40,280 nt of DNA from Selenomonas bovis DSM 23594 (GTDB taxonomy: Bacteria; Bacillota; Negativicutes; Selenomonadales; Selenomonadaceae). This document shows positions 216 through 40,280 of the stretch, in pieces; positions within the stretch are counted from its first letter, which is position 1, and each line of letters opens with the position of its first letter. The translations under genes and the position numbers were made by a program. The DNA lies in contig NZ_KB908383.1 in the NCBI RefSeq assembly GCF_000381005.1, forward strand, positions 55,307 through 95,586, written 5' to 3'. A model generated the notes under the pieces. It made no database searches, was not told where the DNA came from, and saw only the letters and a program-made list of their open reading frames with translations.

Positions 216-309
216 GAGATTGCGCATGCTGGAGGCAGGACACGATATGTCCGAGTGGCGGACATTTTCATGTGGCTTCTGCTGGATTGATTAAGAAAGG
301 AACACTTCC

Positions 310-1452: not shown

Positions 1453-1539
1453 GTTGAATAAAAACGCGCGCAAAGGCCACATAGCAGCCATTGGTGCGCA
1501 TCATTTTCCAGTGACATACACAGGGGGTAACTTACATCC

Positions 1540-2892
1540 ATGGACATCGTGCCGATCCTCATGCAGCTCGTGCTCGTCGCGTTCCTCATTTTCATGAACG
1601 GGTTTTTCGTTGCGGCGGAGTTCTCCATCGTGAAGATTCGTCCGTCGCGCCTGGAGACGCTCATCCAGGAGGGGAATAAGCGCGCGGTTTACGCGAAAAA
1701 GCTCAGCGATCATCTCGACTCCTCGCTCTCGGTCACGCAGCTCGGCATCACGCTCGCCTCCCTCGGCCTCGGCTGGGTCGGCGAGCCGGCCGTCGCGACG
1801 CTCATCCTGCCCGTCACGCAGGCGCTCGGACTCGCGGACGCCGTCGGGCACACCGTCGCGCTCGCGCTCGCGTTCGCCATCATCACGGGCGGCCATATCG
1901 TGCTCGGCGAGCTCACGCCGAAGACGATGGCCATCCAGAGCGTCGAGAAAATCGTGCTGACGGTCGCGCTGCCCATGCTCATCTTCGAGCGCGTCATGTA
2001 TCCGTTCGTCTGGCTGCTCAACCATGTCGCGAACTGGGTCGCGCACCGGCTCGGCTTCGAGACGGACGGCGACGGCGAGGAGGCGCACACGGAGGAGGAG
2101 ATCCGCCTGCTCATGGAGGAGAGCTACAAGCAGGGGCTCATCGACGACACGGAGGCGGACTTCGTCGACAACGTCTTTGACTTCACCGACCTCAATGTGC
2201 GCGAGATCATGACGCCGCGCACGGACATGGTCTGCCTCGACCTCAGCGACGATCTCGACACGAACCTCCATATCATCTTCGAGGAGCAGCTCACGCGCTA
2301 TCCGCTCTGCAAGGAGGACAAGGATCATATCGTCGGCTTCCTGCATGTCAAGGATCTCATGAAAGCGCTCTACACGACGCCGGGCCGCCGCGTGAGCCTG
2401 CGCCGTCTCGCGCGCAAAGCGCTCGTCGTGCCGGACAGCATGGATGTGAGCGTGCTCCTCAAGACCATGCAGAAAAAGCGCGCGCAGATGGCCATCGTCG
2501 TCGACGAGTACGGCGGCACGGCGGGCATGGTGACGCTCGAAGACATCGTCGAGGAGATCGTCGGTGACATCCAGGACGAGTTTGACGAGGAGCGGCCGAC
2601 CGCGGAGCAGCGCGCGCCGCGCATCTTCTCCGTCGACGCGAAGATGCTGCTCGAGGAGCTCGAGGACATCCTCGAGATCGACATCGACGACGTGGAGGTC
2701 GACTCCGTCGGCGGCTGGCTCTACGCCCAGCTCGGCACAGAGCCGCGCATCGGGCAGATGGCGGCTTACCGCGGCCATATCTTCTACGTGGAGGAGGTCG
2801 ACGGCGTGCGCATCACGCGCGTGCTCATCCACCGCGCGGGCGACCTCGCGGAGGAGCATGACGAGATCGTGGGCATCGACGGAGCGTTTTGA
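1540..2892 (+). CDS. CNNM/CBS-domain membrane protein (CorC/HlyC family)
   Basis: Member of the hemolysin-C/CorC family of 450 aa, the usual length. An N-terminal CNNM transmembrane domain (about 1-170, with the typical NGFFVAAEFS at 20-29) is followed by a paired CBS domain (about 220-345) holding the hallmark VDEYGGTAGMVTLEDIVEEI at 321-340. A C-terminal CorC_HlyC transporter-associated domain follows (about 360-440). Family members are linked to Mg2+/Co2+ efflux or ion homeostasis; true hemolytic activity is not expected. The ribosome binding site AGGGGGT precedes the ATG. The start lies 87 nt after the helicase stop, so co-transcription is possible but unproven. Confidence 0.9.
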   Translation: MDIVPILMQLVLVAFLIFMNGFFVAAEFSIVKIRPSRLETLIQEGNKRAVYAKKLSDHLDSSLSVTQLGITLASLGLGWVGEPAVATLILPVTQALGLADAVGHTVALALAFAIITGGHIVLGELTPKTMAIQSVEKIVLTVALPMLIFERVMYPFVWLLNHVANWVAHRLGFETDGDGEEAHTEEEIRLLMEESYKQGLIDDTEADFVDNVFDFTDLNVREIMTPRTDMVCLDLSDDLDTNLHIIFEEQLTRYPLCKEDKDHIVGFLHVKDLMKALYTTPGRRVSLRRLARKALVVPDSMDVSVLLKTMQKKRAQMAIVVDEYGGTAGMVTLEDIVEEIVGDIQDEFDEERPTAEQRAPRIFSVDAKMLLEELEDILEIDIDDVEVDSVGGWLYAQLGTEPRIGQMAAYRGHIFYVEEVDGVRITRVLIHRAGDLAEEHDEIVGIDGAF

Positions 2893-2972
2893 GGTGCCAA
2901 GCGTTTCCCGACGTTCCTTTTCACTTGGAAAGAATTTCTCTATCCAGACTAGGATTTTTCCCTTAAACAAGC

Positions 2973-2978
2973 TATAAT
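2973..2978 (+). promoter_or_regulatory. Putative promoter -10 for the ABC-F gene
   Basis: A perfect TATAAT sits about 45 nt upstream of the chosen ABC-F start. No good -35 hexamer is found 16-18 nt upstream, so this is a weak call based on the -10 box alone. Confidence 0.4.
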
Positions 2979-3023
2979 GATAAAGATGGCGACAAAAGCG
3001 CGCCAGTCAAGGTGACCAAGCAA

Positions 3024-4934
3024 ATGATTCTGACACTCGAAAATTTCACGAAGAGCTACGGCGAGAAGCTGCTCTTCTCAGGCGTCGATCTCAGCCTCGC
3101 CGCGGGCGACAAGGTCGGCATCGTCGGCGTGAACGGCACGGGCAAGAGCACGTTCCTCAAGGCGGTCGTGGGGCTCATCCCCGTGGACGCGGGCACGCGC
3201 GTCACGCAGAAAGGCCTGCGCATCGAGTACCTCGCGCAGGACAAAGTGTTCGATGCGGAAAAGACCGTGCTCACGGAGGTGTTCCGCGGCGGCTCGCCGC
3301 TCATGCAGGCGCTCCGGGACTACGAGCTCGCGGCGGCGCGGCTCGCGCAGGCTCCTGACGATGAAGCCGCGCAGGCGTCTATCGCGCGCAGCACGGAGGC
3401 CATCGACGCCCACGACGGCTGGCAGCTCGAGAGCACGGCGAAAGCGGTGCTCATGCGCCTCGGCATCACGGATTTCACGGCGAAGGCGGGCACGCTCTCA
3501 GGCGGCCAGCAGAAGCGCCTCGCGCTCGCGACGGCGCTCGTGCAGCCCGCCGATCTGTTGCTGCTCGACGAGCCGACAAACCACCTCGACAGCGAGACGA
3601 TCGCCTGGCTCGAGGAGTATCTCGCCGCGCGCAAGGGCGCGCTGCTCATGGTCACGCACGACCGCTATTTCCTCGATCACACGGCGACGCGCATCCTCGA
3701 GCTCGACAAGGGCCGTTCCTACACGTACACGGGCAATTACTCCGCGTTTCTCGAGCAGAAAGCGGCGCGCATCGAGCGCGAGCAGGCGAGCGAGGCGAAG
3801 CGGCAGAATTTCCTCCGGAACGAGCTCAAGTGGCTGCGCCGCGGCGCACAGGCGCGCTCGACGAAGCAGAAAGCGCGCATCGCGCGCTACGAAGCAGTGA
3901 AAAACGAGACGCCCGACCTCGACCGCGCGGCGGTAGAGATCGGTCTCAAGGGAAGCCGCCTCGGCCGCACGGTCATCGAGCTCGATCATGTGAGCTATGA
4001 GGCGGACGGGCGCACCATCGTACGGGACTTTTCCTATACGGTGCTGCGCCATGACCGCGCCGCCATCCTCGGACGCAACGGCACGGGCAAGACGACGCTC
4101 CTGGACCTCATCGCGGGGCGCAGGACGCCGACGCGCGGTACGGTCACCATCGGCCAGACGGTGAAGATCGGCTATTTCACGCAGCGTGCCGCAGAGATGG
4201 ATGAGCGCCTGCGCGCCATCGAGTACATCGAGGAGGCGGCGCATGCCATCACCCTCGCGGACGGCTCGCGCATCAGCGCTTCGCAGCTCATGGAGCGGTT
4301 CCTGTTCCCCGGCAGCCTGCAATGGACGCCGATCGCGCGCCTCTCAGGCGGGGAGAAGCGCCGCCTCTACCTGCTGCGCATACTCATGGAGGCGCCGAAC
4401 GTGCTGCTGCTCGATGAGCCGACGAACGACCTCGACCTCGAGACGATGGCGGTGCTCGAGCAGTTCATCGACGACTTCGACGGCGCGATCCTCTTCGTCT
4501 CGCACGACCGCTTCTTCGTCGACCGCCTCGCGGACAAGGTGTTCGTCTACGAGCCGGACGGCAGCCTGCGCATGTACCCGGGCGGCTATACCTACTACAA
4601 GGAAAAGGCGGCGGAGGAGCAGGCAGCGCTCCCCGCAGCTGCGGAGAAGCCTGCGCCCGCAGCGGAGAAAGCCGCCGCGCCGCGCGCGAAGACGCGCCCT
4701 GCAGCCCCGAAGCTCACGTTCAAGGAGCAGAGGGAATACGCGCAGATCGAGGGCGTCATCGCGAGCAAGGAGGGCGAGCTCAAGGTCGTGCGCCTGCAGA
4801 TGGAGCAGAATGCCTCTGACTACGGGCGGCTCGCGGAGCTCGGCCGCGAGGAGCAGCGCCTCGCATCCGAGCTCGACGGCCTCATGGAACGCTGGGCGTA
4901 CCTTGAGGAGATCGCCGAGGCGCAGCAGGACTAG
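3024..4934 (+). CDS. uup: ABC-F ATPase, Uup-like
   Basis: Soluble ABC-F protein of 636 aa with two ATPase domains and no membrane segments. Domain 1 has Walker A GVNGTGKS (35-42), signature LSGGQ (158-162) and DEPTNHLD (182-189). Domain 2 has GRNGTGKT (350-357), LSGGE (440-444) and DEPTNDLD (464-471). The linker (about 261-290) carries the NELKWLRRGAQARSTK-type tRNA-interacting motif. An Ala/Pro-rich tether leads to a charged coiled-coil tail (about 565-636), the Uup-like layout. These proteins act on ribosomes; Uup is also linked to precise transposon excision. The start is ATG 3024 because AAGGTGA ends 8 nt before it; a GTG at 3012 in the same frame lacks this spacing. An antibiotic-resistance ABC-F is less likely given the C-terminal tail. 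Confidence 0.85.
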   Translation: MILTLENFTKSYGEKLLFSGVDLSLAAGDKVGIVGVNGTGKSTFLKAVVGLIPVDAGTRVTQKGLRIEYLAQDKVFDAEKTVLTEVFRGGSPLMQALRDYELAAARLAQAPDDEAAQASIARSTEAIDAHDGWQLESTAKAVLMRLGITDFTAKAGTLSGGQQKRLALATALVQPADLLLLDEPTNHLDSETIAWLEEYLAARKGALLMVTHDRYFLDHTATRILELDKGRSYTYTGNYSAFLEQKAARIEREQASEAKRQNFLRNELKWLRRGAQARSTKQKARIARYEAVKNETPDLDRAAVEIGLKGSRLGRTVIELDHVSYEADGRTIVRDFSYTVLRHDRAAILGRNGTGKTTLLDLIAGRRTPTRGTVTIGQTVKIGYFTQRAAEMDERLRAIEYIEEAAHAITLADGSRISASQLMERFLFPGSLQWTPIARLSGGEKRRLYLLRILMEAPNVLLLDEPTNDLDLETMAVLEQFIDDFDGAILFVSHDRFFVDRLADKVFVYEPDGSLRMYPGGYTYYKEKAAEEQAALPAAAEKPAPAAEKAAAPRAKTRPAAPKLTFKEQREYAQIEGVIASKEGELKVVRLQMEQNASDYGRLAELGREEQRLASELDGLMERWAYLEEIAEAQQD

Positions 4935-5055
4935 CAGGACTCAGCGAGATGGATGTTCCCGGGACCTCCCGGGATGCCGATAGAGCGCCGGCAGGCGTCT
5001 GCCATGACGGCGCGGACAACCCATACACACATACAAGGGAAAAGGAGAATGTATC

Positions 5056-6345
5056 ATGTCGTTTGACAAGAACCAGTTCGAGGGCATCCTCAAGGATTTC
5101 ACGATCGACAGCGATGAGCTCAAGACCATCGCGGCTGATTTCCGCTACGACCTCAAGAAAGGGCTCAAGGATCCCGCGGAGAGCTCGCTCAAGATGCTCA
5201 AGTCGTACATCGGCCTGCCGACGCGCCAGGAAAAGGGCGAGTATCTCGCGCTCGACTTCGGCGGCACGAACGTGCGCGTGCTGCTCATCCGCCTCGAGGG
5301 CGACGGGAAGTTCGAGGTGCTCCGCAAGGTTGCGAAGCCGCTCGTCGTGCCCGGCTCCTATAACTACATCGCCGCGGACGCCACGGCGGAGCAGATGTTC
5401 GACTTCATCGCCGGTCTCGTAGAGGAGGCCGTGGAGGGCGACCATGCGAAGCAGTATTTCCTCGGCCATACGTTCTCCTTCCCCTCATCGCAGACGAACC
5501 TCTACAACGCGAAGCTCATCACCTGGACGAAAGAGTTCGCGACGCCGGGCGTCGAGGGCGAGGTCGTCAACGACCTGCTCAAGGCGGCGCTCCACCGCAA
5601 GGGCCTCGACAACGTCGAGCCGACGGCCGTCATCAACGACACGGTCGCCGTCCAGCTCGCGGCCGCCTACAAGCATGACAACGTGAACATCGGCTGCATC
5701 TACGCGACAGGCCACAACACCTGCTATCTCGAGCCGTTCGCGGACAAGGCGGAGCAGCCGATGATCCTGAATCTCGAGTCGGGCGGCTTCAACCGCCTCG
5801 CGCCGGGCCGGTTCGATGTCGCGCTTGACGAGCGTTCTGAAAAGCCGGGCGAGCAGCGCCTCGAGAAAATGGTCTCGGGCCGTTATATGGGCGAGCTCTT
5901 CGGTATGGCACTCGCGGAGCTCCTCGGCGAGGCCGGCAAGGAATACGGCTTCACGAGCATCGACATGTCCGCCATCATGGAGGATGAGAGTGAGGATTGC
6001 GCCGCCATCCGCGCGCTCGTCGCGAAGAAGACGGGCCGCGACATCGCGGCGGCGGACGCCTCGCTCGTGCAGGATCTCGTGCTGCGCATCGTGAACCGCT
6101 CGGCGCGCCTCGTGGCCGCGAGCTTCGTCGGCATCCTCTGGCAGCTTGAGGGTGAGGGCATTGAGCAGCCTCAGACCATCGCCGTCGACGGCTCCGTCTA
6201 CGAGAAGATGCCGCACGCGAAGGAGAACCTCGAAAAAGGTCTCTCCGAGCTCCTCGGCGCAGACGCGGCCAAGGTCGAGACCGTCCTCGAGAACGGCGGC
6301 TCGGGCCTCGGCGCCGCCATCGCGGCAGCGGTGAGCCAGAACTGA
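5056..6345 (+). CDS. Hexokinase of the eukaryotic type
   Basis: ATP-dependent hexose kinase of 429 aa. It matches the hexokinase fold of yeast and animals, not the ROK or Glk glucokinases common in bacteria. Visible motifs: phosphate-1 LALDFGGTNVRV (64-75), sugar loop GHTFSFPSSQ (137-146) and WTKEF (157-161), catalytic aspartate in INDT (193-196, Asp195), ATGHNTCY (217-224), NLESGGF (239-245, with the sugar-binding Glu241), EKMVSGRYMGELF (270-282), VDGSVYEKMP (377-386) and a C-terminal GGSGLGAA. All key residues are present, so it should be active, phosphorylating glucose or related hexoses in the cytosol as the entry to glycolysis. A strong AAAGGAGA site precedes the ATG. It could be one of the hexokinase homologues known in a few anaerobes; the substrate range cannot be read from sequence. 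Confidence 0.88.
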   Translation: MSFDKNQFEGILKDFTIDSDELKTIAADFRYDLKKGLKDPAESSLKMLKSYIGLPTRQEKGEYLALDFGGTNVRVLLIRLEGDGKFEVLRKVAKPLVVPGSYNYIAADATAEQMFDFIAGLVEEAVEGDHAKQYFLGHTFSFPSSQTNLYNAKLITWTKEFATPGVEGEVVNDLLKAALHRKGLDNVEPTAVINDTVAVQLAAAYKHDNVNIGCIYATGHNTCYLEPFADKAEQPMILNLESGGFNRLAPGRFDVALDERSEKPGEQRLEKMVSGRYMGELFGMALAELLGEAGKEYGFTSIDMSAIMEDESEDCAAIRALVAKKTGRDIAAADASLVQDLVLRIVNRSARLVAASFVGILWQLEGEGIEQPQTIAVDGSVYEKMPHAKENLEKGLSELLGADAAKVETVLENGGSGLGAAIAAAVSQN

Positions 6346-6457
6346 GCTGCGCCGCAGAACGCAGAACAACATAGGAAACGCGAATGACCTCAGGCGCGGC
6401 AATGCACGGCGCGAAACGAGGACAGAGGCATTTCCATAAGTAAGGATCAGAAACCGT

Positions 6458-7837
6458 ATGGAACAGTCACAAGCGCTTCAGGAAAATCTTTCTCAGCACC
6501 TCGCGATGACGATGAAGATGCAGCAGGCCATCAAGATCCTGCAGCTCTCCGCGCAAGACCTCCGCGGCGTCATCGAGAAGGAATACCTCGAGAATCCCGC
6601 GCTCGAAATCGACTACGACCGTGCGGTTTCTTTTGCTGAGACGGGCAAGAGCGAGCAGGCGTACCGCGCGGAGGATATCTCGGCGCTCGCCGCCTATCTC
6701 GGCGGCTCCGACCGCGGGGACGAGGCGGGAACCGCCGAGGCGGAGAAGAATCCCGTCCTCGCGCGCCCCGCGAGCCGCACCCTCGAGGCGGAGCTCATGG
6801 AGCAGGCCGCGTTCGCCTATCCGGCGGGCAGGGAACGGGAGCGTGCCGTTGCCGTGTTCCTCATCGGCTCCCTCGACGGGAGCGGCTATCTGCGCGTACC
6901 GCTCGCGGAGGCGGCGCGCGCGACGCAGGTGAGCGGGGCGGAGGCCGAGGCGGTGCTCGAGGTCCTCCAGACCTTCGAGCCCGCGGGCGTCGGCGCGCGC
7001 GACCTCGCGGAGTGCCTGCGTCTGCAGGCCGTGCGGCGCGGCATCTACGAGGGGCTCGTCGCGCATCTCATCGACCGCCATCTCGACGCGATCGCTGCGG
7101 GCGCGGTCAAGGAGATTGCGGCCGCGGAGGGCGTGCGCCCCGCAGATGTGCAGCTCGCCGTTGACATCATCCGCACGCTGAACCCGAAGCCGGGCGCGGC
7201 CTACGGCACGGAGACGCCCGGCTACATCACGCCGGACGTCATCGTGCGCCGTCAGGGCAGCGGCTACCGCGTCGAGCTCAATGACGAGGGCGTGCCGCAA
7301 CTGTGCATCTCGAAGCTCTACCAGCACGCGGAGGGGCTCGACAGCGAGACGCAGGCCTACATCAGCGGGCGCTTCCGCGCGGCGCTCTGGCTCATCAAGA
7401 GCATCGAGAGCCGCCGCACGACCATTCGCCGTGTCGTCGAGGAAATCGTGCGCCGCCAGCGCGCCTGCATCGAGCAGGGGCCGGCGGCCCTCGTCCCCAT
7501 GACGATGCAGGAGGTTGCGGACGCCATCGGCGTGCATGAGTCGACGGTGAGCCGCGCGGCCGCGGGGAAATACGTCGAGCTACCGCGCGGCATCGTGCCG
7601 ATAAAGTCGTTCTTCACTGCGAATCTCGCCGCGGGCGGCGCCGCGGCATACAGCGCCGTGCAGGTCAAGCGCGAGCTCGCCGCGCTCATCGAGGGGGAGA
7701 ACCCCGCGAAGCCGCTCTCCGACGCGAAGCTCGCGAAGCTCCTCGAGGAACGCGGCTGCGCCGTCTCGCGACGTACCGTCGTCAAGTACCGCGAGCAGCT
7801 CGGCTACGCGTCCAGCGTCAAGCGCAAGCGCTACTGA
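6458..7837 (+). CDS. rpoN: RNA polymerase sigma-54 factor
   Basis: Sigma-54 (RpoN) of 459 aa. Region I is Gln/Leu-rich (1-52, with the AMTMKMQQAIKILQLS pattern that contacts activators). The core-binding domain is in the middle. A helix-turn-helix for the -12 element (MQEVADAIGVHESTVSRA) is followed by the C-terminal RpoN box SRRTVVKYREQ (about 437-447) that reads the -24 element. Genes it serves need AAA+ enhancer-binding activators; none is encoded in this window. The ribosome binding site TAAGGA is 11 nt from the ATG, slightly far. The gene is followed by a strong terminator. Confidence 0.95.
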   Translation: MEQSQALQENLSQHLAMTMKMQQAIKILQLSAQDLRGVIEKEYLENPALEIDYDRAVSFAETGKSEQAYRAEDISALAAYLGGSDRGDEAGTAEAEKNPVLARPASRTLEAELMEQAAFAYPAGRERERAVAVFLIGSLDGSGYLRVPLAEAARATQVSGAEAEAVLEVLQTFEPAGVGARDLAECLRLQAVRRGIYEGLVAHLIDRHLDAIAAGAVKEIAAAEGVRPADVQLAVDIIRTLNPKPGAAYGTETPGYITPDVIVRRQGSGYRVELNDEGVPQLCISKLYQHAEGLDSETQAYISGRFRAALWLIKSIESRRTTIRRVVEEIVRRQRACIEQGPAALVPMTMQEVADAIGVHESTVSRAAAGKYVELPRGIVPIKSFFTANLAAGGAAAYSAVQVKRELAALIEGENPAKPLSDAKLAKLLEERGCAVSRRTVVKYREQLGYASSVKRKRY

Positions 7838-7872
7838 GTATATATCCTGCGGAACATAACCGCTGCTCCCTG

Positions 7873-7912
7873 TGCAGCCGCTGAGTACCCTATGCCCGGC
7901 GGCTGCATTTTT
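7873..7912 (+). terminator. Rho-independent terminator after rpoN
   Basis: A 9-bp perfect stem TGCAGCCGC/GCGGCTGCA (7873-7881 and 7899-7907) with a 17-nt loop is followed by a T-rich run. Confidence 0.8.
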
Positions 7913-8067
7913 ATACCACCTGGATGGAGATGCGGCGCGCATCCCGCATTTTGTGAGTGGGAACGGAGGGCAGGAGGAGCCACTGATTGTTATTCTTTTC
8001 ACTTATTATTATCGAGTTTACACAATAGATGGGATAAAACAATTATCTTTTGTAAAAGTGTAAAATT

Positions 8068-8099
8068 TTGCTTGCAAAAAAAGCCAAATGTGCTAATAT
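8068..8099 (+). promoter_or_regulatory. Promoter of ndh
   Basis: TAATAT at 8094-8099 is preceded by TGC, making an extended -10. TTGCAA at 8072-8077 is 16 nt upstream; TTGCTT at 8068 is an alternative. The stretch 7985-8100 is strikingly AT-rich for this genome. An inverted pair TTTACAC (8017-8023) and GTGTAAA (8058-8064) lies just upstream and could bind a regulator. Confidence 0.6.
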
Positions 8100-8179
8100 A
8101 GGGTTCGTTGAGAGACATACAAGCCAGTCAGAACGCATCGGCAGCTGCAATTCATGCAGGAGGGGCGTCGGTGCGCTGG

Positions 8180-8210
8180 GAAACGCGCTGAGAAGATCAG
8201 CGTTTCTTTT
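8180..8210 (+). promoter_or_regulatory. Terminator-like hairpin in the ndh leader
   Basis: GAAAC(8180-8184)-GC bulge-GCTGA(8187-8191) pairs with TCAGCGTTTC (8197-8206) around a GAAGA loop and is followed directly by TTTT. It lies between the ndh promoter and start, so it may act as an attenuator or a 5' stabilising hairpin. Confidence 0.45.
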
Positions 8211-8258
8211 CCCAAAGGAAAGTTACAAAATTCACGAAAGCCAGGGAGATGTTTATCC

Positions 8259-9515
8259 ATGTCAGAGAAGAAGCCGCATATCGTGATTGTTGGTGCCGGA
8301 TTCGGCGGGATCAAGCTCGCGCAGACGCTCGCGAAGGAGGATGTCGAGATCACGCTGGTGGATCGTCACAATTTCCACCTGTTCCAGCCGCTCCTCTACC
8401 AGGTTTCGACCGCCATCCTCTCCGAGGATGAGATCGCGTACCCAGTTCGCGCTTATTTCCGCAAGAATCAGAACGTCGAGTTCTTCATGGCGAAGGCGCA
8501 GGGCGTCGATCAGGCGCGCCGCGTGCTGCTCACGAACCATGGTGAGGTCCCGTACGACTACCTTGTGCTCGCGGCAGGCTCCACGACGAACTTCTTCGGC
8601 ATGGAGACGGTCGAGCGCAATTCCTACGGCATGAAGACGCTGCAGGAGGCGCTGCATATCCGCAACCATGTGCTCCACATGTTCGAGCGCGCGAATAAGC
8701 GCGAGGACAGCGAGGAGGAGCGCCGCCGCATGCTCACGTTCGTCGTCGTCGGCGGCGGCCCGACGGGCATCGAGGAGGCGGGCGCCATCGCGGAGCTCGT
8801 CGACATCCAGCGCAAGGAGTTCCACCGCCTCGACTTCAGCGAGGTCAGCGTCAAGCTCATCGAGGCGACGGGCCACGTGCTGCCAATGCTCACGCAGGAC
8901 ATGCAGGACGAGGTCATCCGCGTGCTTGAGAAAAAGGGCGTCGAGGTGCTGCTCAACACACAGGTCGTCGACAATGACGGCAATACGCTGCGCCTCAAAG
9001 ACGGCTCGTCTATCCCGACGAAGACCGTCATCTGGGCGGCCGGCGTCAAGGCCGTGCCGTTCATCGCGAACTGCGGCGGCGAGGTCGACCGCGGCGGCCG
9101 CATCGTCGTTGACGAGCATCTGCGCGTCGAGGGCAGCGACCGCGTGTTCGCCATCGGCGACTGTGCGCATTTCCAGCACGGCACGGAGCGCCCACTCGCG
9201 ACGGTTGCGCCAGTCGCCACGCAGGGCGCGCTCGTCTGCGCACGCAACATCGTGCATCTCCTGCACGGCGAGACGCAGCTCGAGACTTTCCAATACAAGG
9301 ACATGGGGACGATGGCGACCATCGGTCGCGGCCGCGCTGTCATCGAGAACGGCAGCTTCAAGATGAAAGGACTCCTCGCCTGGTTCGCCTGGATGTTCGT
9401 CCATCTCCTCCGCCTCTCCGGCGCGCATACGAACATCACCGTCTGCCTCAAGTGGTTCTGGAACTTCGTCTCCGGCCTGCGTCTCGGCCGTATCATCACG
9501 AACATCGAGCTCTGA
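8259..9515 (+). CDS. ndh: Type II NADH dehydrogenase (NDH-2)
   Basis: Single-subunit, non-proton-pumping NADH:quinone oxidoreductase of 418 aa that passes electrons from NADH via FAD to menaquinone at the inner face of the membrane. The FAD Rossmann motif GAGFGG is at 12-17, the NADH-binding GGGPTG at 165-170, and the second FAD signature FAIGDCAH at 297-304. The C-terminal 60 residues contain hydrophobic amphipathic helices expected to anchor the protein in the membrane. ATG 8259 is chosen because AGGGAGA ends 9 nt upstream; the frame stays open back to 8154 but those residues do not resemble the family. The gene is monocistronic, with its own promoter and terminator. Confidence 0.92.
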   Translation: MSEKKPHIVIVGAGFGGIKLAQTLAKEDVEITLVDRHNFHLFQPLLYQVSTAILSEDEIAYPVRAYFRKNQNVEFFMAKAQGVDQARRVLLTNHGEVPYDYLVLAAGSTTNFFGMETVERNSYGMKTLQEALHIRNHVLHMFERANKREDSEEERRRMLTFVVVGGGPTGIEEAGAIAELVDIQRKEFHRLDFSEVSVKLIEATGHVLPMLTQDMQDEVIRVLEKKGVEVLLNTQVVDNDGNTLRLKDGSSIPTKTVIWAAGVKAVPFIANCGGEVDRGGRIVVDEHLRVEGSDRVFAIGDCAHFQHGTERPLATVAPVATQGALVCARNIVHLLHGETQLETFQYKDMGTMATIGRGRAVIENGSFKMKGLLAWFAWMFVHLLRLSGAHTNITVCLKWFWNFVSGLRLGRIITNIEL

Positions 9516-9589
9516 ACGGGCGACGAAGTTTGAGAGCCCTGCATGCGCAGCGAAAATGCGGCAAAGTGCGGGAAAACAGCATAGATTCT

Positions 9590-9618
9590 GGCTCATCCAG
9601 CAGGATGGGCCTGTTTTT
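9590..9618 (+). terminator. Terminator of ndh
   Basis: Stem GGCTCATCC/GGATGGGCC (one G-T pair) with an AGCA loop, then TGTTTTT. Confidence 0.8.
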
Positions 9619-9689
9619 GTGAAAAAAAGCAGGGAAAATATCTGTGCGGAATATTTTTGCAAGGCTGACGGGCAAAGAAATACAGCAGC

Positions 9690-9722
9690 AAAAAAGGAAC
9701 CGCGGATAGATTCAACGGTTCC
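9690..9722 (-). terminator. Terminator of the convergent MFS gene
   Basis: Stem GGAACCG/CGGTTCC (9696-9702 and 9716-9722). Read on the minus strand it is followed by a T6 run (A-run at 9690-9695). Confidence 0.75.
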
Positions 9723-9775
9723 TTCTTGCTGATGTGTTTGTCTGTATGGGAAATGAAATGGAGGAGATTCGTGTG

Positions 9776-11017
9776 TCAGGCGAGCTCTTCCTCGAGCTCC
9801 TCCTCGAGCTCCTCCTCGTCAGTATCCACTACGACGGCATCGCGGCGGCGTGCGTAGAGGAGGTAGTAGAGCGCGCCGCAGCCGACGGCGGCGAAGCCGA
9901 CGGCAGAGTAGATGCCGGAGAAGCCGAGCGACTCCTTGAAAGCGCCGAGCATGTAGGGGCCGACGCCGAGGCCGAGATCGAGCGCGACGAAGTAGGTCGA
10001 GACGGCGACGCCTACGCGCATCTCCTCGACGAGTTTGACGCAGATGGCTTGGCCGTTCGACATGAAGGTGCCATAGCCGAGACCGACGAAGACGCCGGCG
10101 AGCAGCATCATCCAGCTCGAGGTGGTGATGGAGAGCAGGAGCAGGCCGCCCGCGAGGCAGGCGTAGGTCGGATACATGACGAAGTCTTCCCCTTTGCGGT
10201 CGAAGAGGACGCCGGCGACGGGGCGCGCGACGGTGACGGCGAGCGCGTAGACGACGAAGAATAGGGTGCCGGCGGTCATGAGATTGAGCTCCGCCGCGTA
10301 GGAGGCGAGGAAGCTCAGCACGCTCGAGTAGCAGACAGCGACGGCGAACGCGACGATGGAGATGGCCGTGACTTTCGGCTCGAGGAAGTTCGCGAGGTGG
10401 AACTCGCGCAGCGCCGCGCGGTGCTCAGGCGTGAGTTCCATCTCCTCGACGTGCATGACAGTGACGGACGCGAGGCAGACGAGAATCATCGCGATGCAGA
10501 AATAGATGATGTCGCGGAACGGTAGGACCTGCTGCATGAGCATGCCGATGAAGGGGCCGATGGCGGCCGCGAGGCTCATCGAGAGCGCGTAGTAGTTGAT
10601 GCCCTCGCCGCGGCGCTCCGCGGGGATCATCGTCGAGACGATCGTGCTCGTCGCCGTCGAGGCGATGCCGTAGCCGATGCCGTTGAGGCAGCGCACGAGG
10701 AAGAGCAGTGCGAGCGAGTCGATGGCGAAGTAGAGGAACGTCGTCGCGAGGTAGAAGAGGATGCCCGCGTAGAGCATGCGCTTGCGGCCGTAGAGCTCGA
10801 TGGAGCGTCCCGCGAAGACGCGCGCGAGCAGTGTGCCGAGGATGAAGATGCCCGACGCGAGGCCGGCTTCGCTCATGGACGCGTGCAGCGAGCGGATGGC
10901 CTCGGAGGCGATGATGACCATGAGCATGTAGTAGATGATGTAGATGAGGAAATTGACCAGGGTATCGAGCAGGAACCCCTTGGTCCACAGGCGTGGTTTC
11001 TGAGCCGTGTCTGTCAT
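9776..11017 (-). CDS. MFS transporter, 12 TM segments
   Basis: Major facilitator superfamily permease of about 413 aa. Hydrophobic segments fill the protein, with the loop 2-3 signature GRSIELYGRKRM in the N-half and a weaker copy (GVLFDRKGEDF) in the C-half. It resembles the drug/metabolite efflux (DHA-like) members; the substrate is unknown. The C-terminus ends in an acidic tail made of three EEEL units encoded by three 12-bp DNA repeats (9781-9816). Start choice is uncertain: ATG 11017 has AGAAAGG about 15 nt upstream, while TTG 11029 has it only 3 nt upstream. It is transcribed from its own promoter at 11102-11130 and is convergent with ndh. Confidence 0.85.
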   Translation of the reverse strand: MTDTAQKPRLWTKGFLLDTLVNFLIYIIYYMLMVIIASEAIRSLHASMSEAGLASGIFILGTLLARVFAGRSIELYGRKRMLYAGILFYLATTFLYFAIDSLALLFLVRCLNGIGYGIASTATSTIVSTMIPAERRGEGINYYALSMSLAAAIGPFIGMLMQQVLPFRDIIYFCIAMILVCLASVTVMHVEEMELTPEHRAALREFHLANFLEPKVTAISIVAFAVAVCYSSVLSFLASYAAELNLMTAGTLFFVVYALAVTVARPVAGVLFDRKGEDFVMYPTYACLAGGLLLLSITTSSWMMLLAGVFVGLGYGTFMSNGQAICVKLVEEMRVGVAVSTYFVALDLGLGVGPYMLGAFKESLGFSGIYSAVGFAAVGCGALYYLLYARRRDAVVVDTDEEELEEELEEELA

Positions 11018-11328: not shown

Positions 11329-11350
11329 AAGGGCAGAAAAACGAAGAGAA

Positions 11351-11450
11351 GCAGCCGCGGGGCTGACGGAAGTGGAATCGACCACATGCCGCGCGGGTGT
11401 CGTGAATGCCGACCGTCTGGGCACAGAGATGTCCGGACGGTCGGTTTTTT
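11351..11450 (+). promoter_or_regulatory. ZTP (pfl) riboswitch with terminator platform
   Basis: The aptamer parts match the ZTP/ZMP riboswitch. P1 is CCGCG/CGCGG (11355-11359 and 11392-11396), with the junction GCTGACGGAA and P2 GTGG-AATCGA-CCAC (11372-11385). The 3' conserved strand GCCGACCGTCTGGGC (11408-11422) has CCGTC (11413-11417) positioned to form the pseudoknot with GACGG (11365-11369). The expression platform is a long terminator, CCGACCGTC (11409-11417) pairing with GACGGTCGG (11436-11444), then T6. It uses the pseudoknot strand, so ligand binding should block termination. ZTP and ZMP signal low 10-formyl-THF, and the class is known ahead of fhs (pfl), folD and purine genes. Here it heads an operon that ends in folD-fhs. 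Confidence 0.87.
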
Positions 11451-24680: not shown

Positions 24681-24758
24681 ACATTTGCGCTAGCGTGTGG
24701 TTTTACGCGCTGGCGCCGATCATCACAGCAGGTGTTTCTTACCGAAAAGAGAAATCTT

Positions 24759-24930
24759 AGCGCTGGCTCTGCCCATCGTGCGTGGGCAGAGGACGAGGAG
24801 AAGGTTGTCGAGACGTCAGCGGATGCCTTCCGGAGTTGCCGCTCCGAGAGTGTGCCGGGAAAGCAGGGGAGCGATCTCCTGGACAAAGCGGTACATGCGG
24901 CAGACACCTGCAAGTGGTACCCGGGCAGAC
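24759..24930 (+). ncRNA. glmS self-cleaving ribozyme/riboswitch
   Basis: The conserved core is present: cleavage site A24759/G24760 in AGCGCTGG, the P2 hairpin GCCCATCG.../GGGCAGAG, GACGAGGAGAAGGTTGTCGA, and the pseudoknot block GTCAGCGGATGCCTTCC, then P3/P4 ending near GGCAGACACC. It aligns with the Bacillus glmS element block by block. Glucosamine-6-phosphate acts as cofactor; cleavage destabilises the mRNA and gives feedback control of GlmS. The exact 3' end is approximate. Confidence 0.92.
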
Positions 24931-27557: not shown

Positions 27558-27633
27558 TCCTCGATAGCTCAGCCGGTAGAGCACCTGACTGTTAATCAGG
27601 CTGTCACAGGTTCGAATCCTGTTCGGGGAGCCA
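27558..27633 (+). tRNA. tRNA-Asn (GTT)
   Basis: Complete cloverleaf with anticodon GTT at 27591-27593, GTTCGAATC T-arm and encoded CCA. Confidence 0.97.
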
Positions 27634-27634
27634 T

Positions 27635-27709
27635 GGCGCCATCGTCAAGTGGTTAAGACACCGCCCTTTCACGGCGGGTTCATGGGTTCGAATCCCATTG
27701 GCGTCACCA
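27635..27709 (+). tRNA. tRNA-Glu (TTC)
   Basis: Acceptor GGCGCCA/TGGCGTC, anticodon TTC at 27668-27670, GGTTCGAATCC T-arm, encoded CCA. Confidence 0.97.
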
Positions 27710-27710
27710 G

Positions 27711-27786
27711 GGGCGATTAGCTCAGCTGGGAGAGCGCTTGCCTTACAAGCAAGATGTCAGCAGTTCGATCCTGTTATCGCCCACCA
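27711..27786 (+). tRNA. tRNA-Val (TAC)
   Basis: Acceptor GGGCGAT/ATCGCCC, anticodon TAC at 27744-27746, AGTTCGATCCT T-arm, encoded CCA. Confidence 0.96.
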
Positions 27787-33014: not shown

Positions 33015-34292
33015 ATGGAAGTATTGGCAGGTATCGTATTCATCCTCATGTATGTCGTCATCGTGTCGGAAAAGATTCACCGCACGGTGGCCGCGGTGCT
33101 CGGCGCGCTCGTCATGCTCTACGCGGGCGTGCTCAGCATGGATTCGGCGCTGCATCATGTCGATTTCAACACGCTCGGGCTGCTCGTCGGCATGATGGTG
33201 CTCGTCGGCGTCACGAGCCAGACGGGGCTCTTCGACTATGTGGCGATCTGGGCGGCGCAGAAGGCCAAGGCGGAGCCGCGCCGCATCCTCATCTACCTCG
33301 GCCTCATCACGGCCGTCTTTTCCGGTTTCCTCGACAACGTGACGACGGTGCTGCTCATGGTGCCTGTGACGTTCTCCATCACGAGCAAGCTGCGCCTCTC
33401 GCCGATGCCGTTCCTGCTCACGCAGATCATCGCCTCGAACATCGGCGGCACCGCGACGCTCATCGGCGACCCGCCGAACATCATGATCGGCAGCGCGGCG
33501 CCCGAGCTCACATTCCTCGCGTTCATCGAGAATCTCGCGCCCATCGCGTTTCTCAACCTCTTCATCGTCATCTTCCTCATGGAGGTGCTTTACCGCAAGC
33601 AGCTCAAGACGAAGCCGGAGCTCCAGCAGGAGGTGCTCGCGCTCGACGCGAGGAAATCCCTCAAGGACCGCAGGCTGCTCGCGAAATCGCTGTTTGTGCT
33701 CGCGCTCACGATCCTCGGCTTCTTCACGCATAGCATCACGCACATCGAGTCCTCGCTCATCGCGCTCGGCGGTGGTTTCCTGCTGCTCCTGCTCGCGGGC
33801 GGCAGCCATCACCTCGTCGAGAAGACGATGAAATCCGTCGAGTGGGCGACCATCTTCTTCTTCATCGGCCTCTTCATCGCGGTTGGCGGCCTCGTCGAGA
33901 CGGGGGTCATCCATGACCTTGCGGTCAAGGCCATCGAGCTCACGGGCGGTGATGTCACGGCGACTTCGCTGCTCGTGCTCTGGCTCTCCGCGCTCGTCTC
34001 GTCGGTGCTTGACAACATCCCGTTCGTCGCGACGATGATCCCGCTCATCCAGAGCATGGGGCAGATGGGCGTCGCGAATCTCGATCCCATCTGGTGGAGC
34101 CTCGCGCTCGGCGCCTGCCTCGGCGGCAACGGCACGCTCGTCGGCGCCTCGGCGAACCTCATCGTCGCGGGCCTCGCGGCGGAGCGCGGCGTCAAGATCA
34201 CGTTCCTGCGCTATCTCTGGATCGGTTTCCCCATCATGCTGCTGACCATCGTGCTCTCGACGGTGTACGTCTATCTGCGCTACCTGATGTGA
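33015..34292 (+). CDS. ArsB/NhaD-type ion transporter
   Basis: Integral membrane protein of 425 aa in the ion transporter superfamily (ArsB/NhaD/P-protein). About ten to twelve hydrophobic segments are visible. Two internal repeats show the typical asparagine motifs: FLDNVTTVLLMVPV in the first half and VLDNIPFVATMIPL in the second. GGTATLIGDPPNIMIG and GGNGTLVGASANLIVAG are the paired re-entrant loops. Family members move Na+, arsenite or dicarboxylates. No ars genes are present, so a Na+/H+ or organic-anion role is more likely than arsenite. AAAGGAGG precedes ATG 33015. Confidence 0.85.
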   Translation: MEVLAGIVFILMYVVIVSEKIHRTVAAVLGALVMLYAGVLSMDSALHHVDFNTLGLLVGMMVLVGVTSQTGLFDYVAIWAAQKAKAEPRRILIYLGLITAVFSGFLDNVTTVLLMVPVTFSITSKLRLSPMPFLLTQIIASNIGGTATLIGDPPNIMIGSAAPELTFLAFIENLAPIAFLNLFIVIFLMEVLYRKQLKTKPELQQEVLALDARKSLKDRRLLAKSLFVLALTILGFFTHSITHIESSLIALGGGFLLLLLAGGSHHLVEKTMKSVEWATIFFFIGLFIAVGGLVETGVIHDLAVKAIELTGGDVTATSLLVLWLSALVSSVLDNIPFVATMIPLIQSMGQMGVANLDPIWWSLALGACLGGNGTLVGASANLIVAGLAAERGVKITFLRYLWIGFPIMLLTIVLSTVYVYLRYLM

Positions 34293-34357
34293 GACGTGGC
34301 GGATCGCTGGAGATCCCAGGCAAAGGCAAGTTGCAGCAGAAATTTCCGGTAAAGCGC

Positions 34358-34386
34358 TTGACATCCTTCGCTGATGGGAGTATATT
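34358..34386 (+). promoter_or_regulatory. Promoter of the T-box transcript
   Basis: Consensus TTGACA (34358-34363), a 17-nt spacer and TATATT (34381-34386). GATGGGA/TCCCATC (34373-34379 and 34389-34395) forms an inverted repeat around the -10, and TTACAA-ACG-TTGTAA (34401-34415) follows. Confidence 0.8.
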
Positions 34387-34419
34387 ATTCCCATCGAACG
34401 TTACAAACGTTGTAAACAT

Positions 34420-34692
34420 GTAAATATTGCCAGAGACATCCGATGATAGGAAAGAGTACTTCCCGTACGAGGCTTGCAGAGAGCCGCCAGTTTGCTGAGA
34501 GGCGGTAGCGGAGGCGGGGACGAAAATCCTCCTTGAGGAGTGCGGCTGAACGCGATTGGTAAGCCAAGACGTATTCTCCACGTTACAGGAGACGCGTATG
34601 ATAGTACGCTGTGAGTGCCCGGCGCTGTGCCGGGAATCTGGGTGGTAACACGGAAACAGACCTCCGTCCCTTTGCGGGACGGAGGTTTTTAT
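34420..34692 (+). promoter_or_regulatory. T-box leader
   Basis: tRNA-sensing attenuator. Stem I has base GGCTT/AAGCC, the AGAGAG box (34478-34483) and a GGCGGTAGCGG tract. The specifier region is CTGAACGCGATTGG (34546-34559); with the usual GAA before the codon the specifier is CGC (34551-34553, Arg), while GCG (Ala) or AAC (Asn) are possible other readings. The T-box sequence CTGGGTGGTAACACGG is at 34638-34653. The terminator ACCTCCGTCCC/GGGACGGAGGT (34660-34670 and 34676-34686) is followed by T5. Uncharged tRNA binding should stabilise the antiterminator and switch on the MFS gene. Confidence 0.9.
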
Positions 34693-34731
34693 ATTTTCAT
34701 CATCATTTATTATTTCCTGGGAGGAATCAAC

Positions 34732-36057
34732 ATGAACGCATCTGTTGACATGAAGCAGCTTACGCGCAAGCGGGATCTCCGGATCGTCTTTCCGGTGTTC
34801 CTCGTGTCCATCATCGCCTGCCTGGACCGCGTGAACATTTCCTACGCGGCGCTCACGATGAAGCAGGATCTCGGCTGGCTCACGCCGGAGATCTACGGCG
34901 CGGGCGCGAGCATTTTCTTCTTCGGCTATCTGCTGCTCGAGATTCCGGGCTCGCTCATCGCAGCACGCTTCTCCGCGTCGAAGTGGATCGCGCGCATCAT
35001 GTTCACTTGGGGCCTCGTCTGCTGCTTCATGGCGTTCATGAGCACGCAGTTCGAGTTCTATCTCTGCCGCTTCCTGCTCGGCGCCTCGGAGGCGAGCCTC
35101 TATCCCGTCATCTACTCCGTGCTCTTCCCGCGCTGGTTCATGGGCAAGGAGCGGGCGCGCGCCACGAGCTACATGCTCACGAGCCTCCTGCTCGCGAACA
35201 TCATCGGCGCGCCGCTCTCCGGGGTGCTGCTCTCGACGTCCATCATCGGCCTTGCCGGCTGGCAGGAGCTCTTCATCCTCGAGGCTGTGCCGGCGCTCCT
35301 CTTCGCGGTCTTTTTCTTCTTCTTCGTGCCGGATCGTCCGGACCAGGCATCCTGGCTCACGGATGAGGAGAAGGCATATCTCAGCGAGGCGTATGAGGAA
35401 GAGCGCGCCGCCATGCTCAAGAAGAAGAAATACTCCGTACTCAAGGCGTTCCGCGATCCGAAGGTCCTGCGCCTCTGCGTCATCTATTTCCTCTGGGTCG
35501 TCGGTTTCTGGGGCTTCTATTTCTGGATGCCGACCGTTCTGAAACAGCTCTCCGGTCTCTCCACGCAGCTTCTCGGCGGCGCCATCGCCATCCCGATGAT
35601 GGCGGCCCTCGTCGTGCAGGTGCTCATCGGCCGTTCGTCCTCGCGCACGGGCGACAAGGTCTGGCATGTCGCGGGTGCGCTCTTCGTCGGCGCGGTCGGC
35701 CTCGCGCTCTCGCCGCACGCGCCGAACACGGCGGTCGCGCTCGTGCTCATCTGCCTCTCGGCCATCGGCATCCACGCTTCGATGGGCGTCTGGTGGACCA
35801 TCCCGACGACATTCCTCACGGGCTCCGCGGCCGCGGCGTCCATCGCGCTCATCAACTGCTGCGGCAACCTCGGCGGCCTCGTCGGCCCCTATATGATGGG
35901 CTGGATCAAGACGAACACGGGCACGTTCGACCTCGGTTACTATATCATGGGCGGTGCGATGTTCCTCGCGGCGCTCCTCGTGCTCAGCATCAAGTACGGG
36001 TTCGGCTTTGCCGCAAAGAAGGAGAAGGAAGAGGCGCCTGCTGTCGCAGAGAACTGA
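34732..36057 (+). CDS. ACS-family MFS transporter under T-box control
   Basis: Major facilitator of 441 aa of the anion:cation symporter group. It has FLVSIIACLDRVNISYAAL at the N-terminus (TM1 with the family-typical DRVNIS), YGAGASIFFFGYLLLEIPGS in TM2 and GASEASLYPVIYSVLFPRWF in TM4. Twelve membrane segments are expected, with a long charged central loop. Family members usually carry organic anions such as sugar acids, tartrate or phthalate. Control by an amino-acid-sensing T-box argues that this one imports an amino acid or a related precursor (inference). GGGAGGAA precedes ATG 34732. No terminator follows directly; the next + strand candidate is at 36589-36638. Confidence 0.88.
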   Translation: MNASVDMKQLTRKRDLRIVFPVFLVSIIACLDRVNISYAALTMKQDLGWLTPEIYGAGASIFFFGYLLLEIPGSLIAARFSASKWIARIMFTWGLVCCFMAFMSTQFEFYLCRFLLGASEASLYPVIYSVLFPRWFMGKERARATSYMLTSLLLANIIGAPLSGVLLSTSIIGLAGWQELFILEAVPALLFAVFFFFFVPDRPDQASWLTDEEKAYLSEAYEEERAAMLKKKKYSVLKAFRDPKVLRLCVIYFLWVVGFWGFYFWMPTVLKQLSGLSTQLLGGAIAIPMMAALVVQVLIGRSSSRTGDKVWHVAGALFVGAVGLALSPHAPNTAVALVLICLSAIGIHASMGVWWTIPTTFLTGSAAAASIALINCCGNLGGLVGPYMMGWIKTNTGTFDLGYYIMGGAMFLAALLVLSIKYGFGFAAKKEKEEAPAVAEN

Positions 36058-36144
36058 GATGCTCGCTGTGCGATTCCCCTTCCCTAAAGAAGCACTGATT
36101 AATGCAAGATTTTTCCACTTACTGTTGAAGTGGATGAGAACATA

Positions 36145-36315
36145 CCTTCTCCCTAGGAGAAGGGGGACCGCGAAGCGGTGGAAGAGGTGTTGCACGACGG
36201 GGGATTGCGCCGGAAATCATCATTCGAGGCGAAACACCTCTTCCGCCATCGCTACGCTCGGCACTCCCGGGGATGCCACTGGCATCCCGCGCTAACGCGC
36301 CCCCTGAGGGGAAGG
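36145..36315. repeat. Palindromic dispersed repeat, complete copy
   Basis: Begins CCTTCTCCCTAGGAGAAGG, then ACCGCGAAGCGGTGG and AAGAGGTGT, and returns through ACACCTCTTCCGCC and CTACGCTCGG to end in CCTGAGGGGAAGG. Same family as 1-215. It carries an extra palindromic stretch (GGGATGCCACTGGCATCCC, 36273-36291) near the right end. Confidence 0.75.
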
Positions 36316-36319
36316 TTAA

Positions 36320-36496
36320 GGAAGCACTGATTAAATGAGGTGCTCCAGATTTGCGTGGATGCGCTGTATCTCTCTAGGAGACAAACCGGAAGCGTAGCGC
36401 CAAAACGCTCCATCGCGTTTTGTGCTGAGGATTGTAGGGCGACGAGAGGACAGTGCAGACGCGCGAAGACGGAGTGCCGAATTAATCAGCGGTTCC
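36320..36496. repeat. MITE-like element, complete inverted copy (177 bp)
   Basis: GGAAGCACTGATTAA ... TTAATCAGCGGTTCC, opposite in orientation to 24460-24635. It is flanked by TTAA on both sides, consistent with TA target duplication. Confidence 0.85.
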
Positions 36497-37339: not shown

Positions 37340-39142
37340 ATGTTAAGGATTGCTTCTATGAAAACGCGCCTGATGCTCGCTATCTGCGGTGTATCAATCG
37401 TATCGACGCTGTGCATCGGTGCTTATTTCATCGTCAGCACGGTGCGTGATAATCACGCACAGCTTGCCGCGTATCGGGCAGATCTCGAGGATAGTGTGGG
37501 GAGTCAGCTCAAGGGTGAGACAGAGGTGGCCTACGGGATCCTCGAGGAGTATTACAAGAAACAGCAGGCAGGTGAGCTCACGGAGGAACAGGCGAAGAAG
37601 GAGGCAGCCGACCGCGTGCGCGACCTGCGCTATGACGGCGGCAAGGGCTATTTCTGGATCGATACGGTGGATGGCAACAACGTCGTGCTGCTCGGCAGGA
37701 AGGATGTCGAGGGAACGAACCGTTTCAACGCAAAGGACCCCAATGGGTATCCGTATATTCAGGAGATCAACAAGTCTGCGCAGCAGGAGGGCGGCGGCTT
37801 TACACGCTGGATGTTCCCAAAGCCGGGCGAGACGGAGTCCCTGCCGAAATACGGCTATTCCATTGAGTTCAAACCGTATCACTGGGTGCTTGGCACGGGC
37901 GTCTGGATCGATGAGATCGATGCGATCGTCGCGCAGAGAGAGGCGAAGCTTGCGGCGGATCTGCGCACGAGCATCCTGGAGTCGCTCGGCGTGATTGTCT
38001 TGCTGCAAATCCTCCTGGCCCTTTTCTCACGCTATGTCGGCGCGAACATCGCGCGTCCGATCGTACGGACGACGGAGCGGCTCGGCATCATGGGGACGGG
38101 AGACTTCCGCCTCGAGGGTGAGGCTGCTGCGGAGATGCAGGAGCTTGCCTCCCGTCCGGATGAGCTCGGCACGATGGCGCAGGCCATGCAGGAGATGAAT
38201 GAAAAAGTACGCGCGCTCATGCGCAATGTCGCGCAAACGGCGGAGTACCTCGCGGCGTCGTCTGAGGAACTCACATCTTCGGCCGAGCAAGCGGCGGATG
38301 TCAGCCAGTCAATCGCTGAGTCGATCGTCAAGGTCGCGGGCGCGTGCTCGGAGCAGTTCGACGACGTGCAGACGGCCAACGAGCATACCAAAAAACTCAC
38401 GCAGCACATGCAGGACTTCGAGGGGCATCTCGAAGAGACGGGCCAGCAGGTTCAGAAGACGAGCGATGTCGCGACCGAGGGACGTCAGGGCGTCGCTACG
38501 GCGGTGACAGGCATGCAGTCCATCCAGACGAATGTCAGCCACATCGCGGAGCTCATCGAAGGACTGGGGGAGAACTCCAAGCAGATTGGCGAGATTGTCG
38601 ATACCATCGCGAACATCGCGGATCAGACGAACCTTCTCGCGCTCAATGCCGCCATCGAGGCAGCGCGTGCGGGCGAGCATGGCCGCGGCTTCGCAGTGGT
38701 GGCCGATGAGGTGCGCAAGCTCGCCGAACAGTCGCAAGAAGCGGCGAGCGAGATCTCGGAGCGCATCGGCCGCATCCAGTCCTCGACGCAGGAGGCTGTG
38801 GACGCCATGCACCAGGGACTCTCCGAAGTCATGGACGGAACGAAGACCGTGCAGGGGGCCGGAACATCCTTCGAGGGCATCGCGAGCATGGTAGGCAAAG
38901 CGGCAGAGGCATCACAGGCGATGCAATCCTCCGTCGAGCGCCTGACGCAGAGCATCGGCCGCATCGACGCGGCTGTCGAGGAAATTAACACCAAGAGTCG
39001 TTCGGTGGCGGATGAGGCACAGACCGTCTCGGCGGCGACGGAGGAAGAGACAGCCTCGATGCACGAAATCGCCGACGCGAGCCGCAAGCTCGCAGAGCAG
39101 GCGCAGAACTTGCAAAATTCCATCGCGGTATTTAAAATATAA
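37340..39142 (+). CDS. Methyl-accepting chemotaxis protein with Cache sensor
   Basis: Transmembrane chemoreceptor of 600 aa. TM1 is at about 10-33. A periplasmic single Cache domain spans about 35-210 ([11 protein letters not shown] at 102-112, [21 protein letters not shown] at 174-194). TM2 lies at about 214-231, followed by HAMP and a long coiled-coil signalling domain. The hairpin tip [20 protein letters not shown] is at 426-445. Ligands of this Cache type are often small organic acids; here unknown. ATG 37340 has GAGGGGG upstream; ATG 37358 is an alternative start. The upstream 150 nt is AT-rich, with a TTGGGAC/GTCCCAA hairpin (37300-37320) but no clear promoter. The next small gene follows after 45 nt. 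Confidence 0.9.
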
Positions 39143-40005: not shown

Positions 40006-40280
40006 TTCATGGAGAGTTTGATCCTGGCTCAGGACGAACGCTGGCGGCGTGCTTAACACATGCAAGTCGAACGAGACGATTTAGAAGCTTGCTTTTATTG
40101 AGTCGAGTGGCAAACGGGTGAGTAACGCGTAGACAACCTGCCGCAAAGATGGGGACAACAGTCCGAAAGGACTGCTAATACCGAATGTTGTATCTTCTCC
40201 GCATGGAAGAGATATTAAAGATAGCCTCTACTTGTAAGCTATCGCTTTGCGATGGGTCTGCGTCTGATTAGCTAGTTGGT
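40006..40280 (+). rRNA. 16S ribosomal RNA, 5' part
   Basis: The universal GAGTTTGATCCTGGCTCAG starts at 40014, with CATGCAAGTCGAACG and GTGAGTAACGCGTAG downstream. The 5' end is placed by analogy with E. coli numbering. The gene is cut by the window end. V1-V2 sequence points to Selenomonadaceae (recalled, not aligned). Confidence 0.97.

Follow-up and report, generated by a model that had tools for sequence, protein, structure and literature searches.

In the present study, a complete T-box leader with a promoter-like site and a terminator was confirmed directly before the MFS transporter gene at 34732-36057 of the window, by which we mean the whole analysed stretch of 40,280 nucleotides from Selenomonas bovis DSM 23594, a Selenomonas of the rumen type. 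The specifier codon of this leader was read as AUC, and the leader most likely senses uncharged tRNA-Ile and not an arginine tRNA. We favour the reading, with a probability of about one half, that isoleucine starvation switches on the uptake of a carboxylate of the isoleucine pathway (a 2-oxo acid or similar). The features of the region, in window coordinates, are as follows:

34358-34386, forward strand: promoter-like TTGACA-17-TATATT, 11/12, consensus match only
34434-34674, forward strand: T-box leader with Stem I, Stem II, Stem IIA/B, Stem III and antiterminator, from RF00230 and covariation
34526-34528, forward strand: specifier codon AUC (Ile) in the Stem I specifier loop, from the RF00230 alignment and 50/50 orthologous leaders
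34551-34553, forward strand: CGC, taken as the specifier in an earlier note on this DNA; within Stem II in the RF00230 alignment
34643-34646, forward strand: UGGU of the antiterminator bulge, complementary to ACCA with A73
34658-34688, forward strand: intrinsic terminator of 13 pairs with a T tail, alternative to the antiterminator
34720-34724, forward strand: ribosome-binding site GGAGG, by sequence reading
34732-36057, forward strand: gene of the ACS/SLC17-like MFS transporter of 441 aa (ATG at 34732, stop at 36057)

The claim of the earlier note that a T-box with a terminator stands before the gene was borne out. The covariance model RF00230 matched 34434-34674 of the forward strand over model positions 1-219 of 219 with 119.2 bits (E 5.3e-26), against a gathering cut-off of 93 bits. 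In addition, the leader has a Stem I specifier loop with a codon, a UGGN bulge, and an antiterminator and a 13-pair terminator that exclude each other. The predicted minimum-energy fold of 34434-34700 includes the terminator and has a z-score of -2.80 against shuffles. Two promoter-like sites were found in 34200-36400 compared with 0.6 in shuffles, and terminator-like sites numbered 4 compared with 2.0. In the alignment of 29 orthologous leaders (S. bovis included), 20 of the 37 consensus pairs were preserved through changes in both partners. Furthermore, 95.9% of the cells in these leaders were paired, against 83.1% in shuffles (0/500 as high) and only 41.0-49.2% in slid-alignment controls, and the covariation score was 0.466 versus 0.236. 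The number of further pair types in the same 29 leaders was not above that of the shuffles (41 vs 44.7, 498/500 as high).

The specifier loop ends in GAA-A-AUC-C, followed by the UCCU strand of Stem I. Under the TBDB rule, which in an excerpt of PMC7778990 counts from the 3' end of the loop and takes bases 2-4 as the specifier, the codon is AUC, isoleucine. The RF00230 alignment, recommended in the earlier note for fixing the specifier, was run and gives AUC at 34526-34528. The arginine codon proposed there did not hold, as CGC at 34551-34553 lies outside the specifier loop, in Stem II, and stands after GAA at that place in only 4 of 45 leaders. An alanine codon does not occur in the specifier loop. 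When the frame is moved by -1, an asparagine codon (AAU) is read in 40 of the 45 leaders, but UAU in five; when it is moved by +1, a serine codon (UCA or UCC) is read in 45/45, yet the invariant A of AUC is not needed for serine. Moreover, tRNA-Asn and tRNA-Ser have G73, whereas the bulge is UGGU in 47/50 leaders. The specifier column was calibrated on the 14 other T-boxes of the S. bovis genome, using their RF00230 alignments and their downstream genes, with these codons:

UAC before DAHP synthase
CUC before leuS and leuA
UUC before prephenate dehydratase and pheS
ACC before thrS
GUC before valS
UGG before trpS, trpF and trpD
UCC before phosphoglycerate dehydrogenase (serA)
GGC before glyQ
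AUC before ileS
GCU before an aminotransferase of unsettled substrate

The column was cognate in 13 of these 14, the GCU (Ala) case being not judgeable, and frames -1 and +1 were used by none of the 13 judged T-boxes. The gene names are best matches; trpF does not reach the cut-offs of its models, nor does ileS, which is cut by the end of its stretch, reach its own. All 13 judged T-boxes precede genes by which the sensed amino acid is made or loaded onto its tRNA. In 12 of the 14, the UGGN can pair with the discriminator base of the cognate tRNA, the exceptions being serA (U against G73) and ileS, the tRNA of which was not seen.

The transporter was matched in 48 of 189 genomes of the family at E <= 1e-60 and, class-wide, in 75 of 380 genomes at E <= 1e-100. 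Orthologues with at least about 70% identity were present in 46 family genomes, the copy of G155 being cut; the matches in G048 and G049 reached only 35-36% identity and were not counted as orthologues. The upstream DNA was collected for 51 orthologues, namely 46 of the family, two of another family and three of Megasphaera (a sample without G337, G340 and G341, which are of the other family and were matched in the class-wide search). A T-box was found before 50 of the 51, and all 50 leaders read AUC, in agreement with the earlier note where it linked the gene to an amino acid or a precursor. The base before AUC is A in 45 leaders and U in 5, and the base after it is A in 31 and C in 19. The sole orthologue without a T-box is that of Selenomonas artemidis, and relatives at 47-61% identity have no T-box just upstream, as judged from DNA patterns and alignment by eye rather than by the covariance model. 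On a protein tree of 74 rows, the T-box label requires one change (support 100/96), with S. artemidis as the sister.

The bulge reads UGGC in the other three leaders (L042, L054 and L056, from G126 and two Pectinatus genomes), which mismatches A73 of tRNA-Ile; the ileS leaders of Pectinatus carry UGGU, unlike the leaders of the MFS transporter there. Of 10 genomes inspected, six yielded a tRNA-Ile(GAU) with A73, and in the other four (S. bovis, G142 and both Pectinatus) none was found. In S. bovis, neither the 30 loci and 16 stretches examined out of 63 tRNA matches nor a pattern search showed it, perhaps because the rRNA operons are unassembled, as the window ends in 16S rRNA. The UGGU of the window fits A73 of tRNA-Ile as read in the relatives.

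The 441-residue protein was matched by MFS_1 with 158 bits. The best curated models were the D-galactonate transporter subfamily TIGR00893 (292.3 bits, cut-off 395) and then the 4-hydroxyphenylacetate permease HpaX TIGR02332 (210.8 bits, cut-off 615.4), with both scores under the cut-off. The AlphaFold2 model (mean pLDDT 79.4) is similar to DgoT (6e9n, Z 42.9 over 387 residues) and to sialin (Z 42); SLC37A4 outscores both in the fold search (Z 44.4), so that the fold alone does not pick the ACS family. VGLUTs were the best PDB matches by sequence, and since the profile of the transporter alignment found these and not DgoT, the latter was aligned by phmmer and MAFFT. Among the six E. coli proteins compared, YfaV was the nearest (33.5% over 385 residues), and YhjE was alignable over 50 residues only.

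The residues of DgoT, with the roles given in excerpts of PMC6532931 and PMC10149257, were mapped on 49 T-box proteins (G155 was too short and was left out) and on 21 relatives including S. artemidis. D46, R47, Y79, R126 and E133 are kept in 70/70 of the aligned proteins and N393 in 69, with a gap in one, while Q164 is replaced by L (M in three relatives), Q264 by Y (F in one protein) and S370 by G. By this alignment, the carboxylate and proton site is kept and the sugar-hydroxyl contacts are lost, also in the relatives without a T-box. The assignment made in the earlier note, an ACS-type MFS transporter, is upheld by the MFS_1 match and by these kept carboxylate/proton residues. The protein resembles ACS/SLC17 carriers, for which organic-anion/proton transport is predicted here. 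At the position of Y44 in DgoT (C30), C was found in 49/49 T-box proteins and in S. artemidis, whereas the other 20 relatives have F (16) or Y (4). Twelve further positions also separate the two groups, and C30 is a candidate for the specificity change, not a proof of it. Since S. artemidis has C30 without a T-box, the residue perhaps came first and may predate the leader.

In the neighbourhood of the gene, no neighbour common across the genera was found in 30 loci with flanks up to 5 kb. Pieces (E1, E2 or E3) of a 2-oxo-acid dehydrogenase cluster were present in 10 of 17 T-box-less loci outside the family and in 0 of 30 T-box-clade loci, the flanks of the compared loci differing in length. 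Among those ten, L187 and L188 have only E3 at 36-38%, with a lipoate ligase adjoining E3 in L188, and L182 has short pieces. In L181, E1 alpha is more similar to pyruvate dehydrogenases than to branched-chain ones, and the cluster may be an acetoin dehydrogenase instead. The ilv genes are neighbours in one of the 30 T-box-clade loci (L113, the Selenomonadaceae MAG SUG529), where the T-box and gene are followed on the same strand by ilvC, ilvB and ilvD, with a promoter-like site of its own before ilvC and a PanS-like carrier homologue about 4 kb upstream on the other strand (all within 38-11005). Furthermore, two Pectinatus genomes (L206 and L207, 1501-3238) contain a second T-box followed by a PanS-like SBF transporter and then ilvD. 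The AUC and UGGU of this second T-box were read by eye, the SBF family search was made on L206 only, and the PanS model match of the carrier was 295 bits against a cut-off of 400.

A chemoreceptor with an sCache_2/dCache_2 sensor was observed downstream of the transporter at 37340-39142 of the window, and perhaps it senses a related acid. Within the genus, 5 of 7 loci (the window, L112, L114, L115 and L118) have an sCache_2 receptor downstream of the transporter gene, and L116 ends right after this gene. Three S. ruminantium-type loci have instead a dCache_1 receptor upstream, a type often linked to amino acids. With 16 MCP domains over the cut-off in the S. bovis genome, the receptor adjacency exceeds scatter within the genus, and the two receptor types indicate no single ligand.

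The supply of isoleucine was also surveyed in the genomes with the gene. By hand tally, an ilvD match at E <= 1e-100 was present in 42 of 46 family genomes, and a match of BrnQ, the usual branched-chain carrier, likewise in 42 of 46. In the 12 genomes searched, ilvA was over the cut-off in all and citramalate synthase in none. On these counts, no pathway gap explains the transporter gene. In S. bovis itself, BrnQ is present without a T-box, and ilvD has neither a T-box nor ilvC or ilvB within the 18 kb read.

In T-boxes, uncharged tRNA stabilises the antiterminator and thereby opens the gene. From the anatomy of the leader, its codon and its conservation, we infer that uncharged tRNA-Ile(GAU) would pair at two places, through its anticodon with the AUC of 34526-34528 and through its free ACCA end with the UGGU of 34643-34646. 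This would let the antiterminator form in place of the terminator at 34658-34688, and the transporter would be made. The family and the anion-site residues suggest that the product would be a proton-coupled importer of ACS/SLC17 type for a monocarboxylate feeding isoleucine synthesis. The likeliest cargo would be one of the 2-oxo acids 2-oxobutyrate and 3-methyl-2-oxovalerate, or else a short branched acid, e.g. 2-methylbutyrate.

An isoleucine T-box before a member of a family that usually carries organic acids argues for the uptake of either isoleucine or a precursor acid. The acid is indicated by the kept anion site and the lost hydroxyl contacts, the dehydrogenase neighbours of the relatives, the ilv neighbours in L113, the parallel of T-box, PanS-like carrier and ilvD in Pectinatus, and the presence of BrnQ besides. 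Several observations count against it, namely the promoter-like site that ilvC has for itself in L113, the ilv neighbours in just 1/30 loci, the pyruvate-like E1 alpha of the relatives, the twelve differing positions besides C30, the three UGGC leaders and the dCache_1 receptor near the S. ruminantium-type loci. As to its origin, we suggest tentatively, at clearly less than even odds, that in the Selenomonadaceae/Megasphaera clade symporters of pyruvate-like acids became importers of an isoleucine-pathway acid, 2-oxo or branched, by a change of a pocket residue from Phe/Tyr to Cys (C30), and then gained the isoleucine T-box.

The main rival is that, under the same isoleucine T-box, the ACS-type carrier imports isoleucine itself or branched-chain amino acids, which we consider possible although clearly short of an even chance. 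Known T-box transporters, also those with Ile codons, are annotated as amino-acid carriers in the available part of PMC2494555, and the VGLUTs, of the same wider family and the best PDB matches by sequence, carry glutamate. That MFS proteins can carry isoleucine is exemplified by YhjE, of another family, which carries Ile and Val (PMC12708883, in excerpt); this counts against the acid, though YhjE aligns over 50 residues only. Moreover, BrnQ was not found in 4 of the 46 family genomes that carry the transporter gene. Against an amino-acid cargo stand the BrnQ of the other 42, the kept residues of the anion site and the 2-oxo-acid dehydrogenase genes that adjoin the relatives in 10/17 loci. It is unlikely that the isoleucine T-box controls a cargo that is no source of isoleucine, such as a general carbon source or a compound for export; in favour of such a cargo, no neighbour of the gene is fixed across genera, but the codon is invariant in 50 leaders and the 13 judged T-boxes precede synthesis or charging genes of the sensed amino acid. 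That the leader answers the tRNA of Ser (UCA/UCC, +1), Asn (AAU, -1) or Arg (CGC) is highly improbable, since the serine codon of frame +1 in 45/45 leaders and the fit of three UGGC leaders to G73 of tRNA-Ser or tRNA-Asn are opposed by frame 0 in 13/13 judged T-boxes of the genome (serA and ileS included), an AUC invariant in 50 leaders with UGGU in 47/50, and the place of CGC outside the specifier loop.

Compared with known systems, the arrangement pairs an ordinary regulator with a new controlled target. The ileS leader of S. bovis (L015) likewise has AUC in the same model column, UGGU and a terminator-type architecture, but it controls a tRNA ligase, whereas the transporter leader, with C or A as the base after the codon, controls an ACS-type carrier. 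In the portion of Wels et al. (2008, PMC2494555) available, T-boxes of Firmicutes likewise stand before transporters, and the table includes an MFS (Lys) and LIVCS/ABC transporters with Ile; the occurrence of T-boxes upstream of transporters, an MFS among them, and of isoleucine specifiers in such leaders was already known. In the same portion, these transporters are read as amino-acid carriers, ACS is not among the families named, and Negativicutes has 0 occurrences. In searches of the open-licence PMC literature, none of the titles and abstracts listed dealt with the pair of an isoleucine T-box and an ACS-type carrier. DgoT, the E. coli D-galactonate:H+ symporter of the ACS/SLC17 family, shares the fold and D46, R47, Y79, R126, E133 and N393 with the S. 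bovis carrier, but the two are 22% identical, and the hydroxyl-binding Q164, Q264 and S370 of DgoT, as well as Y44, are replaced. YfaV, a putative transporter beside rhmD and the nearest E. coli protein compared (33.5%), has F at position 44 and P at 370 and no T-box, E. coli being without an RF00230 match in the control. The PanS-like carrier of Pectinatus (L206, L207) likewise stands behind an AUC/UGGU T-box and before ilvD, but it belongs to the SBF family, unrelated to the ACS-type carrier.

T-box codons are used to assign the sensed amino acid to a transporter as its cargo. In the present case, the invariant isoleucine codon stands before a member of an organic-anion carrier family, which would mean either a new family of isoleucine importers or T-box control of precursor uptake. 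If the latter is true, the gene would account for the uptake step in the synthesis of isoleucine by rumen bacteria from acids like 2-methylbutyrate, acids to which an excerpt of PMC7356843 gives a precursor role in rumen fermentation. Together with the PanS-like/ilvD arrangement of Pectinatus, it would point to precursor scavenging under the control of tRNA-Ile charging, relevant to the rumen, where branched acids are isoleucine precursors. The prediction is narrow: one protein, a few acids and one marker residue.

Other elements were also observed in the window. A repeat element, MITE-like by look, lies behind the transporter gene at 36088-36340; it has 47 matches in the genome, and six of these, besides the element itself, cover about 215-250 of the 253 bases and are 83-94% identical to it. 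A ZMP/ZTP riboswitch was matched at 11349-11429 (RF01750, 44.7 bits, cut-off 39), and a glmS ribozyme at 24748-24906 (RF00234, 89 bits), at a glutamine amidotransferase/SIS gene (glmS-like). In addition, a tRNA cluster (Asn-Glu-Val) is present at 27558-27786, and a 16S rRNA gene at 40006-40280, inside which the window and the contig both end.
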